Below, one piece after another: positions 1 to 51,889 of a stretch of DNA of 64,000 bases. The notes below the pieces were generated by a model. It was given only the letters and a program-made list of their open reading frames with translations, was not told where the DNA came from and did no database searches. How positions within the stretch are numbered: position 1 is the stretch's first letter; each line of letters opens with the position of its first letter. Position numbers and translations under genes: made by a program. Source of the stretch: Deltaproteobacteria bacterium HGW-Deltaproteobacteria-2 (lineage in GTDB: Bacteria > Desulfobacterota > Syntrophia > Syntrophales > Smithellaceae); the NCBI GenBank assembly GCA_002840505.1, contig PHBC01000004.1:1-64000 (forward strand). The letters run 5' to 3'.

Positions 1-85
<85 letters not shown>

Positions 86-15858: not shown

Positions 15859-16397
15859 ATGCTTAGGCTTGAGTAATCGTCAAATATTTTATTATATTTT
15901 TCGTGAATCATTTTGCGGTCGAATTCCCAGAATTCGGCAAGCATTTTGGCTTGTTCATCTTTGTCAAAATATTCCTGACAGGGATAGAAGAAGTGCTTGT
16001 CTTCCTTCTCGATGTGTTTGGGATAAAAATTGCCTAACTGCCGCGCGAAATCTATTATGCGTGGTAATTCGTCTTTGTCGCCTTCTAAATATTTTACTTT
16101 GGCCGCAACCAGCGCTGCCGTCGTCTTTCTTCCCCAAACATGCTCGTCCAGCAGTTCCTGCATGATTTTTTTCAATTCCGGCGTAAGATCTTTCTTGGCC
16201 AGATCTCTGAAGAGAATTTCCTCTTCCTTACCATGATGAGTGCGGTCGGCGTAAGTGCGCACGAAGTCAACGGCTATATCTATGATGAGAGGATTAACTT
16301 TCTTGCTTTTTTCAATATTGTCAATATGAAGCATCATCGAAGAGAGCATTTTTTCAATCAATCTATGTTCCCACATTAACGGTCCGATAGGTTTCAT
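15855..16397 (-). CDS. hemerythrin HHE-domain protein
   Basis: A 181-residue four-helix-bundle protein of the HHE cation-binding family. Candidate diiron ligands are visible in order: WEHRLIEKM, RTHHGKEEEILF, LLDEHVWGRK, and YPKHIEKEDKHFFYP. Such proteins bind O2 or handle nitrosative or oxidative stress in anaerobes. I start at ATG 16397, which has AAGGAGG seven bases upstream; a TTG two codons earlier is less likely. It is divergent from the probable zur gene, sharing the 16398-16531 region. Confidence 0.88.
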   Translation of the reverse strand: MKPIGPLMWEHRLIEKMLSSMMLHIDNIEKSKKVNPLIIDIAVDFVRTYADRTHHGKEEEILFRDLAKKDLTPELKKIMQELLDEHVWGRKTTAALVAAKVKYLEGDKDELPRIIDFARQLGNFYPKHIEKEDKHFFYPCQEYFDKDEQAKMLAEFWEFDRKMIHEKYNKIFDDYSSLSI

Positions 16398-20631: not shown

Positions 20632-21225
20632 ATGGCCATATCATTACCGGAACTCCCCTATGGGAAAGATGCATTAGCGCCTTTTATCAGTGCCAATACC
20701 CTGGATTTTCATTATGGTAAGCATCACAAAGCTTATGTGGATAATCTAAACAAATTAATCGCCGGCACTGATCTTGAACAAAAATCGTTGGAAGAAATTA
20801 TTAAGATTGCCGCTAAAGATCAGGCAAAAGCCGGCATCTTCAACAATGCTGCCCAGACATGGAACCATTCCTTTTACTGGCAATGTCTGAAGAAAGCAGG
20901 AGGAGGAGTTGCTACCGGAGCAATCGCGGCAAAGATTAACGCTGTATGGGGAAGTTACGATAAATTTGTTGAAGAGCTGAAAAATGCCGGCGCGACTCAG
21001 TTCGGCAGCGGCTGGGCATGGCTGGTTCTGGAGGGAGATCAGTTAAAAATAACAAAGACAGCAAATGCCGATACACCTCTTGCCCACGGTCAAAAAGCAC
21101 TCCTGACAATTGATGTATGGGAACACGCCTATTACCTGGATTATCAAAACCGGAGGCCTGATTATCTTGCCGCTGTGATTCAAAATTTGATTAACTGGGA
21201 CTTTGTCAATGCCAATTTAAGATAA
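20632..21225 (+). CDS. sodB: superoxide dismutase, Fe type
   Basis: Converts superoxide to O2 and H2O2 in the cytoplasm. The 197-residue protein has metal ligands His27 (DFHYGKHHKAY), the His of WNHSFYW, and the Asp/His of DVWEHAYYLDY. The second-sphere Gln in NNAAQTWNH is the Fe-SOD arrangement rather than the Gly/His pattern of Mn-SOD. RBS aaaggag precedes the start and a strong terminator follows the stop. The enzyme fits an anaerobe that meets occasional oxygen. Confidence 0.95.
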   Translation: MAISLPELPYGKDALAPFISANTLDFHYGKHHKAYVDNLNKLIAGTDLEQKSLEEIIKIAAKDQAKAGIFNNAAQTWNHSFYWQCLKKAGGGVATGAIAAKINAVWGSYDKFVEELKNAGATQFGSGWAWLVLEGDQLKITKTANADTPLAHGQKALLTIDVWEHAYYLDYQNRRPDYLAAVIQNLINWDFVNANLR

Positions 21226-50365: not shown

Positions 50366-50803
50366 TTAAATGATGGTTTCCAGTATTTCCACTACGCTCT
50401 TCACACATTGTTTGCATACTTTATTAAGATAATCGTTTTCTTTGAATATCTTCTGCCCTTCTTCCGTTGTCAACTCGCAACCATTTAACAATTGACGGCA
50501 AATATAGGTGCCGTGCCTTTGGGAAAACTGATTCATAAGTTCTCTTATCTTTATATAAGCATTATCGGTTACTTTCCGGTCTTCGTTTTCTCCCCGGCCG
50601 TATTTGGCGCTTATGACCATTATCCCCCCGCTCACCGCGCCGCAGACTTCCTCTTTTCTTCCCATGCCCGCACCGAACCCGCAGGCAATCTTGAGGGCTT
50701 TATCCTTATCTAAATTGAGATCGTCACAAAAAGAAAAAAGAACTGCCTGCGCGCAGTTATAACCGCCAACAAATTTGGCAATCGCTTGTTCACTTCTATC
50801 CAT
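50366..50803 (-). CDS. C_GCAxxG_C_C family redox protein
   Basis: A 145-residue protein of the C_GCAxxG_C_C family: Cys in GGYNCAQAVL, then GFGAGMGRKEEVCGAVSGG, and the Cys residues of TYICRQLLNGCEL and LNKVCKQCVKSV. These Cys residues are thought to bind a metal or Fe-S centre and serve in redox chemistry. I start at ATG 50803, preceded by a GGAG; a longer frame reaches 50944 but overlaps the neighbouring gene and is not conserved. Confidence 0.85.
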   Translation of the reverse strand: MDRSEQAIAKFVGGYNCAQAVLFSFCDDLNLDKDKALKIACGFGAGMGRKEEVCGAVSGGIMVISAKYGRGENEDRKVTDNAYIKIRELMNQFSQRHGTYICRQLLNGCELTTEEGQKIFKENDYLNKVCKQCVKSVVEILETII

Positions 50804-50879
50804 GACTACTCCACATTCGTTATTAAGCATATTACGTTTTATTTCAGCGGTTCCGTTAGGTGTCCGCTGAAATGTTCCG

Positions 50880-51263
50880 TTATTCATTCTCTTTGCCCAA
50901 TAACCAAAGCTTGGCTTCCTCAACACTTGAAAATATTCCACCATTTACCAAACCGCGATTTTTTATGACAACAGTTTCAACGAATTCGATTCCCTTGGCG
51001 GTTTCCTTCACCTGATTTACCCATGCAATACGATGCTTTAATGTCAGTCCCACCAACTCTAATATCTTGATGTGATTGAAAGCATCCATTGTGGACAATT
51101 CATCAGTGGTATAGTTCTCCCCAAGAATATTGAAGCAGTTATATTGATCGCACATCGCCTTTACACGCCGCCACAAATCAAGGGAGATATCATAATTGTT
51201 CTTACCGTAGTGCCGCACATGAATGTAATTGTCTTTGTATTCAATGATTATCTCATCGCGCAT
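50880..51263 (-). CDS. STAS/SpoIIAA-like small protein, unknown
   Basis: A 127-residue soluble protein with start MRDEIIIEYKDNYIHVRHYGKNNYD and an alpha/beta alternation (FNILGENYTTDELSTMDAFNHIKILELVG; RIAWVNQVKETAKGIEFVETVV) that fits the STAS/SEC14-like DUF fold found in regulators of membrane anion transport. The family call is tentative. RBS aggagg. It is immediately upstream of the C_GCAxxG gene on the minus strand. Confidence 0.6.
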   Translation of the reverse strand: MRDEIIIEYKDNYIHVRHYGKNNYDISLDLWRRVKAMCDQYNCFNILGENYTTDELSTMDAFNHIKILELVGLTLKHRIAWVNQVKETAKGIEFVETVVIKNRGLVNGGIFSSVEEAKLWLLGKENE

Positions 51264-51361: not shown

Positions 51362-51389
51362 TTGAAATTAAGACAAATGCGAGTATATT
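51362..51389 (+). promoter_or_regulatory. promoter for the selenoprotein gene
   Basis: TTGAAA (51362-51367), 16-bp spacer, TATATT (51384-51389), 30 bp upstream of the start codon. Confidence 0.5.
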
Positions 51390-51418
51390 TAGCATAAAGA
51401 CTAAGGAGGGCAGACATT

Positions 51419-51889
51419 ATGGCTAGAGTCGAGCTAAATGTTCAGGCGCCGGATTTTATGCTGGACAATTTCAATGGTAAGAGCGTCTCTCTTTCCGGCT
51501 TTAAAAACAAAAAAAATGTCATGGTGGTTTTCAACCGCGGATTCTTTTGACCTTTCTGCCGCGCGCACATGGCGCAGTTGCGCCAGGATTATGATAAATT
51601 TGTGAAGCTGGATACGGAAATTCTCGTTGCCGGACCGGAAAATGCCGAGGCTTTTAAAAATTATTGGGAAAAAGAAAAACTACCTTTTATCGGTTTGCCC
51701 GATCCCGAACACAAAGTTTTGAAATTGTACGGTCAGGAGGTTAAGATATTCAAATTGGGCAGAATGCCCGCGCAGGTGATGATTGATAAATCCGGCAAGG
51801 TTCGGTTTGTTCATTACGGCCATTCGATGTCGGACATTCCAGCTAATGAAGAAATTATTAATCTGATTGAAACACAATTGTTAAAATGA
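51419..51889 (+). CDS. peroxiredoxin-like selenoprotein (Sec at residue 44, TGA 51548-51550)
   Basis: Translated through the in-frame TGA, the 156-residue product is a continuous thioredoxin-fold AhpC/TSA-like protein: APDFMLDNFNGKSVSLSGF, VMVVFNRGFF-U-PFCRAHMAQLRQDY, and C-terminal PAQVMIDKSGKVRFVHYGHS. Relatives carry WCPFC at this place, so TGA stands exactly at the first Cys of the redox motif, giving UPFC. Strong RBS (aaggaggg) and a promoter precede the ATG. The GGCGCA-GT-TGCGCC hairpin 21 nt beyond the TGA fits a bacterial SECIS. Reading only from 51569 would wrongly give a truncated protein. It requires selA/B/C/D elsewhere in the genome. Confidence 0.9.
51571..51584 (+). promoter_or_regulatory. 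candidate bacterial SECIS hairpin
   Basis: GGCGCA (51571-51576), loop GT (or AGTT), TGCGCC (51579-51584): a tight 5-6 bp stem whose apical loop begins about 26 nt after the TGA, with a G in the loop. This spacing and loop composition fit the SelB-recognised bacterial SECIS consensus, although the stem also codes for protein. Confidence 0.55.

Follow-up and report, generated by a model that had tools for sequence, protein, structure and literature searches.

The window, i.e., the whole stretch of 64,000 nucleotides analysed here (contig PHBC01000004.1 of Deltaproteobacteria bacterium HGW-Deltaproteobacteria-2; genome completeness 98%), carries a gene for a peroxiredoxin-like (Prx-like) protein whose reading frame is crossed by a single TGA (Table 1). 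The surroundings of this codon read RGFFUPFCRAHMAQLR, where U stands for selenocysteine (Sec). The open frame described in the initial annotation, with its ATG, ribosome binding site, one in-frame TGA and normal stop, was recovered at exactly the same coordinates. The terminal TGA can be taken as a real stop because homologues end at about the equivalent position with TAA, TAG or TGA. Under translation table 11, the same frame yields only a 106-residue ORF from 51569, which is the truncation that a gene caller had been expected to produce.

Table 1. Features of the Prx-like gene in the window
Feature	Position	Strand	Remarks
Gene for the predicted Prx-like selenoprotein	51419..51889	+	156 residues including Sec44; ATG at 51419; stop TGA at 51887-51889
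Shine-Dalgarno sequence AAGGAGG	51403..51409	+	Similar GGAGG in many of the listed homologues
In-frame TGA, predicted codon of selenocysteine 44	51548..51550	+	Frame reading, homologue codons
TGC codon of Cys47 (UPFC), proposed resolving residue	51557..51559	+	Ala or Thr instead in some relatives that keep Sec
SECIS-like hairpin TGGCGCA-GT-TGCGCCA	51570..51585	+	TGA-to-loop spacing 26 nt
Weak sigma-70-like promoter match TTGAAA-16-TATATT	51362..51389	+	Promoter scan

A promoter scan of the region returned seven sigma-70-like sites, compared with a shuffle mean of 1.7. As a control for chance, a loose scan of the window gave 15 TGA-read-through frames, including that at 51419-51889; ten of the other 14 were run through Pfam, of which nine gave no match and the tenth proved to be an ordinary FAD enzyme with its domains lying ahead of the TGA. 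Elsewhere, the window holds a partial 16S rRNA gene cut by its edge (1-85, minus strand) and, at 50369-50944 (minus strand), a C_GCAxxG_C_C redox protein (Pfam, 115 bits) encoded by an ORF without an in-frame TGA; Sec forms of this family are among those listed in PMC13188914. The presence of Fe-SOD and hemerythrin, also claimed initially, is plausible as far as motif-like stretches picked by eye from a regex scan can tell: an Fe/Mn-SOD motif (DVWEHAYY) lies at 21112 (plus strand) and a hemerythrin-like stretch near 16238 (minus strand).

The in-frame TGA is shared by relatives at several taxonomic depths. At the order level, 83 of 149 genomes gave a match at E<=1e-8, and a hand list drawn from these matches places the TGA gene proper in 50 genomes. 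Codon-by-codon reading of 50 site-intact loci from 49 of these 50 genomes revealed TGA at the site in every one (50/50), followed at position +3 by Cys in 36 and Ala in 14; one of these loci (L069, genome G084) diverges from the family past about residue 117. Five broken or partial copies were set apart from this count, i.e., L070 (G119), with TAA at the Sec position, an earlier TAA and a lost frame; L071 (G053), in which the TGA is retained and a frameshift lies behind it; and L072, L073 and L074, which are fragments without the Sec site. In G123, the copy is a fragment. Because such broken, partial or divergent copies exist in G119, G053, G123 and G084, the gene is dispensable in some relatives. 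Nine of the weaker matches (L075-L083) were read as well; four are ResA-like proteins in which both positions are Cys, and five are Bcp-like proteins with Thr and Cys there. Among named genomes, the best 80 of 304 relatives, a set overlapping with the order-level one, all have TGA with Cys at +3 (80/80), and Cys forms may occur among the 224 more distant relatives. The titles of these 80 records include Syntrophaceae, other deltaproteobacteria, Chloroflexi/Anaerolineae, Actinobacteria, Spirochaetes and KSB1, and the closest are Smithella/Syntrophaceae MAGs with up to 90% identity, which suggests a host within or near the Smithellaceae. At the phylum level, 22 of 395 genomes gave a match at E<=1e-25, and the only Cys forms were four diverged paralogues from genome G231 (RGFACKQSQWHL type), in which +3 is never Cys. 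These paralogues (L186, L188, L189 and L190) share their genome with a UxxA copy (L179), and a TGA sister of the Cys forms (L185) is found in genome G159. Thus, the view that close relatives carry the first Cys of a CPFC motif at this site must be abandoned: they have Sec (TGA), and the four Cys forms belong to a sister clade. A deletion at this point in homologues, which had been proposed as the mark of a pseudogene, was not encountered, the frame being intact and the TGA conserved across phyla.

Mobile elements and gene neighbourhoods were also searched. A Sec homologue (RGLRUPYCRRHL) with the same hairpin as the window gene lies on the Thermomicrobium roseum plasmid NC_011961.1 (L084:1501-1965), where the annotation stops at the TGA and shows only a hypothetical protein of 43 residues, overlapping an alpha/beta hydrolase. 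Altogether, 39 plasmid records gave a match; among the 20 listed, T. roseum reaches 38% identity and the other 19 no more than 33%. Seven pattern matches in viral contigs included no relative, and a phage collection gave two weak matches with <30% identity. Within 80 loci, no general operon partner emerged, the largest neighbour cluster, acyl-CoA-synthetase-like by eye, being present in 13. Since neighbours are not generally conserved, gene context yields no clue to the substrate.

The hairpin behind the TGA is conserved beyond what codon choice would produce. A perfect 7-bp stem is found in 84 of 94 UxxC rows, and its inner 6 bp in 88 of 94, whereas resampling synonymous codons within the same genes (200 trials) gave a mean of 3.9 and a maximum of 10 of 94 rows; over all motif types, the perfect stem is present in 86 of 120 unique rows. 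Leu54 is encoded by TTG in all 89 unique UxxC rows, whereas at their other Leu positions TTG accounts for 147 of 711 codons, and in the same set Gln53 is CAG in 85/85 rows and Ala52 is GCG in 85/86. It should be noted that these rows share kinship and hence are not independent events, although they span several phyla; compensated base pairs were seen in two rows (L115 and L120). The hairpin by itself (24 nt) folds at -10.8 kcal/mol (z -2.84). In a 35-nt fold the same hairpin is the minimum-energy structure (z -0.10, not significant), and a 48-nt fold from the TGA prefers a different structure (z -0.15, not significant). Folding energy would not prove the hairpin, and its reality is therefore argued from conservation. 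With a stem-loop shortly behind the TGA and a G in the small apical loop (GU), the element agrees with the wording used for bacterial SECIS elements in PMC1088965, and its initial identification as such is borne out by the conserved stem and the frozen codons. In UxxA rows the hairpin appears to be re-sited: CATCTG-nnn-CAGATG pairs occur in 16 of 20 (L057-L069, L176, L177 and L181), L051 retains the UxxC-type hairpin, and a GCACCT-GG-AGGTGC hairpin is possible, by eye, in L178-L180. Within this context, the idea of a pseudogene or sequencing error, in which the protein simply ends at the TGA, is exceedingly improbable, since, despite the genuinely decayed copies in relatives (G119, G053 and G123), the TGA is conserved in the site-intact copies read, frozen hairpin codons stand behind it, and the protein is conserved on both sides (column identity averaging 71% in 44 sequences).

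The genome has all four genes that the initial annotation had proposed to look for (selA, selB, selC and selD), and the absence of selB or selC that would have spoken against Sec did not occur. A canonical tRNA-Sec lies at C3:236670 (73.8 bits; ARAGORN anticodon TCA), and SelA, SelB and SelD matched with 628, 377 and 383 bits, respectively, SelB being the sole match above its cut-off. SelD has its own in-frame TGA, in AGUACK, which fits the Sec motif UxxK listed for SelD in PMC13188914 and thus provides independent evidence that this genome uses UGA for Sec. A candidate second SelB (L011) was rejected, as its ORF looks by eye like CysN/CysC with CysD alongside. Among the 50 genomes having the gene, SelA was unmatched in two, with completeness of 82 and 88%; because SelA is present in 133 of 149 genomes, its co-occurrence with the gene is uninformative. 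In the proposed mechanism, SelB would recognise the hairpin and deliver Sec-tRNA.

A second tRNA in this genome raises the question of whether UGA 44 might be read as cysteine instead. This tRNA (G000:C1:453455) was found by both ARAGORN and Rfam (54.9 bits), and by eye it and its aligned relatives have U73, the tRNA-Cys identity element; a selC* tRNA-Cys(UCA) has been described in the review PMC7609411, and the second TCA tRNA is probably of this kind. Nonetheless, decoding of codon 44 as cysteine by such a selC*-like tRNA is very unlikely. Twelve genomes of the TGA-gene family have a single tRNA-Sec match (>=70 bits) at E<=1e-8, several of them being incomplete MAGs in which weaker tRNAs may be missed; the gene and its hairpin are retained in records titled Chloroflexi and Actinomycetota; and this genome has one SelB only above the cut-off, unlike the Syntrophobacterales selC* case as presented in PMC7609411. 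The second tRNA lies between LysR-like and YeeE/YedE-like genes (L002:1500-1593; C1:453455-453545 in its own genome), and by eye it and its aligned relatives have an 8-bp acceptor arm and U73, the CCA not being encoded. ARAGORN calls tRNA-SeC in 16 of 20 candidate loci of this family, and genes flanking its copies in L220, L230 and L236 belong, according to Pfam, to Sulf_transp, LysR, Se_S_carrier and TusA/DsrE. A similar RNA with a different acceptor stem, and with UCA and U73 by eye, is found at L223:262-357 and L225:2000-2096; both copies score 59.3 bits to Rfam tRNA-Sec without an ARAGORN call.

As judged from sequence comparison, UGA codon 44 is strongly selected for retention, with a SECIS hairpin directly behind it, in a genome with complete bacterial Sec machinery. 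Because the TGA is conserved, the hairpin is conserved beyond codon choice and the machinery is present, the product of the window gene is almost certainly a selenoprotein rather than the remnant of a pseudogene.

That the Prx-like class of selenoproteins was already known, so that any novelty lies with the particular member, was stated at the outset and agrees with the literature. Prx-like UxxC selenoproteins were reported from the Sargasso Sea (PMC1088965), one Prx-like thiol:disulfide oxidoreductase was listed in 2006 among the selenoproteins of Syntrophus aciditrophicus (PMC1794560), and the UxxC/UxxU family, with a predicted activity, also appears in the reviews PMC9312934 and PMC13188914. 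On the basis of its PF00578 domain and its UxxC motif (UPFC), the window gene is a further member of this published Prx-like thiol:disulfide oxidoreductase family, the activity of which is a predicted one. With PF00578, UxxC and SECIS in common, nothing essential sets the window member apart from the published proteins, and L053, 54% identical to the window protein, is probably the listed S. aciditrophicus member and its orthologue. In contrast, the GOS family 'Prx-like 1', as counted in PMC2398784, consists mostly of Cys forms (225 Sec and 2,740 Cys members), and no close Cys form was found in the branch of the window gene. Within NCBIfam, the best match of the window protein was the SelL-related redox protein NF040769, which was rejected at 75 bits against a cut-off of 120; in 59 genomes, this model gave four matches, all below the cut-off. 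SelL has the motif UxxU, and the window protein has UxxC instead.

The fold resembles peroxiredoxins most and ResA almost as much. With Sec entered as Cys, Pfam assigns residues 8-137 to AhpC-TSA (PF00578; 80.9 bits, gathering threshold 26) and Redoxin (73.8 bits); these were the only Pfam families returned, glutathione peroxidase (PF00255) not being matched at E<=0.001, although its fold may be compatible. The AF2 model (pLDDT 92.8, Sec modelled as Cys) places residue 44 just ahead of a helix at 45-56, and its top PDB matches are two tied peroxiredoxins, Bcp1 (Z 20.0, 2.4 A over 147 residues) and AhpE (Z 19.7, 2.5 A over 146), followed by ResA (Z 18.6, 2.0 A over 136). The protein thus has a fold in common with typical Sec/Cys peroxiredoxins of the TxxU/TxxC type (PrxU, Bcp and AhpE; Z up to 20.0), but its active site is displaced. 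In typical peroxiredoxins the peroxidatic Cys/Sec is preceded by Thr at a distance of three residues, whereas in an alignment with L078-L082 the window Sec itself occupies the Thr position, three residues earlier than in PrxU, Bcp and AhpE, and some relatives no longer have the Cys at the Prx position. In keeping with this, Sec44 aligns both with the first Cys of the ResA-like CxxC and with the Thr of the Bcp-like TPVC (L075-L083). At the position of the peroxiredoxin Pro, the window protein has Arg; both departures, at Thr and at Pro, count against a peroxidase of the peroxiredoxin kind.

The distribution of the two redox residues was followed on a maximum-likelihood tree. After removal of identical rows, and without fragments, L069 or the repeats L165-L168, it comprises 134 rows (129 different), of which 130 have Sec and four have Cys. 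In this tree, the bootstrap of which is not settled and which is midpoint rooted, 108 of 109 UxxC rows fall into one clade together with one UxxA row (L051) and one UxxT row (L182, which has a long branch). T. roseum (L084) stands outside this clade, also on a long branch, and the remaining UxxA rows are split between a clade of 15 rows and one of three. Cys47 has therefore been lost with Sec44 kept at least twice within the UxxC clade, and also in sister clades. Because Cys47 was lost several times and Sec44 rarely, Sec44 is the likely nucleophile, and Cys47 would be a resolving residue that can be dispensed with. The initial suggestion had left open whether Sec replaces the peroxidatic or the resolving Cys; the attacking role is the one favoured by the loss of Cys47, and the resolving role is disfavoured. 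Seven of 14 UxxA loci (L057, L060, L062, L063, L064, L065 and L067) have a strongly hydrophobic, signal-peptide-like N-terminus, with a 12-residue hydropathy of at least 1.7, compared with a maximum of 0.9 among 36 UxxC loci; start codons for this comparison were chosen by script, and further hydrophobic N-termini may be hidden.

Taken together, the window protein is probably best explained as a selenoenzyme with a peroxiredoxin fold, in which no export signal is recognisable. Its Sec44, at the N-terminus of helix 1, would make the nucleophilic attack, and the most likely targets are hydroperoxides, not protein disulfides. A selenenic acid would be formed, Cys47 would resolve it as an Se-S bond, and a thioredoxin-type reductant would regenerate the enzyme; in relatives without Cys47, an external thiol may take over resolution, as in glutathione peroxidase. 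Since ResA matches nearly as well as the peroxiredoxins in both sequence and structure, the hydroperoxide substrate is put forward as a prediction, one that has somewhat better than even prospects. The competing explanation, a thioredoxin/ResA-like thiol-disulfide oxidoreductase that is no peroxidase and whose Sec-Cys pair would exchange electrons with protein disulfides, seems rather doubtful, although it deserves serious weight. The published family carries this very name, with UxxC (PMC1794560 and PMC13188914), ResA structures match with Z up to 18.6, and the NCBIfam ResA model matches 27/27 members at E<=0.001, the window protein reaching 48 bits against a cut-off of 170. However, the best structural matches are peroxiredoxins, and an enzyme that requires a Sec-Cys pair would hardly be expected to lose its second residue, as L051, L182 and the UxxA clades have done.

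For the peroxiredoxin-fold selenoenzyme, the persistence of Sec44 despite the loss of Cys47 (UxxA and UxxT) seems to be a new point. Among the full-text papers searched, none has 'UxxA', in that wording, together with 'selenoprotein', and none pairs 'selenoprotein' with 'Smithella'; the main text of PMC13188914 likewise has no 'UxxA'. The lone helix-N-terminal Sec of the UxxA relatives would work in a manner similar to that of the Sec glutathione peroxidases (UxxT). Tentatively, and with somewhat less than even chances, the family might represent a third design of Sec peroxidase beside GPx (UxxT) and PrxU (TxxU), i.e., a nearly obligate-selenium branch of the Prx fold in which the only redox residue that cannot be dispensed with is a lone Sec at the thioredoxin-like position, repeated losses have removed the resolving Cys (UxxA and UxxT), and one UxxA lineage has a re-sited SECIS and often a hydrophobic N-terminus.

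Standard annotation misses or shortens this gene, as in the T. roseum plasmid record, and since the window protein falls below every NCBIfam cut-off, many genomes may lack the protein on paper. Moreover, since Sec is present nearly always and Cys47 only in part of the family, which of the two residues is catalytic can be tested directly.
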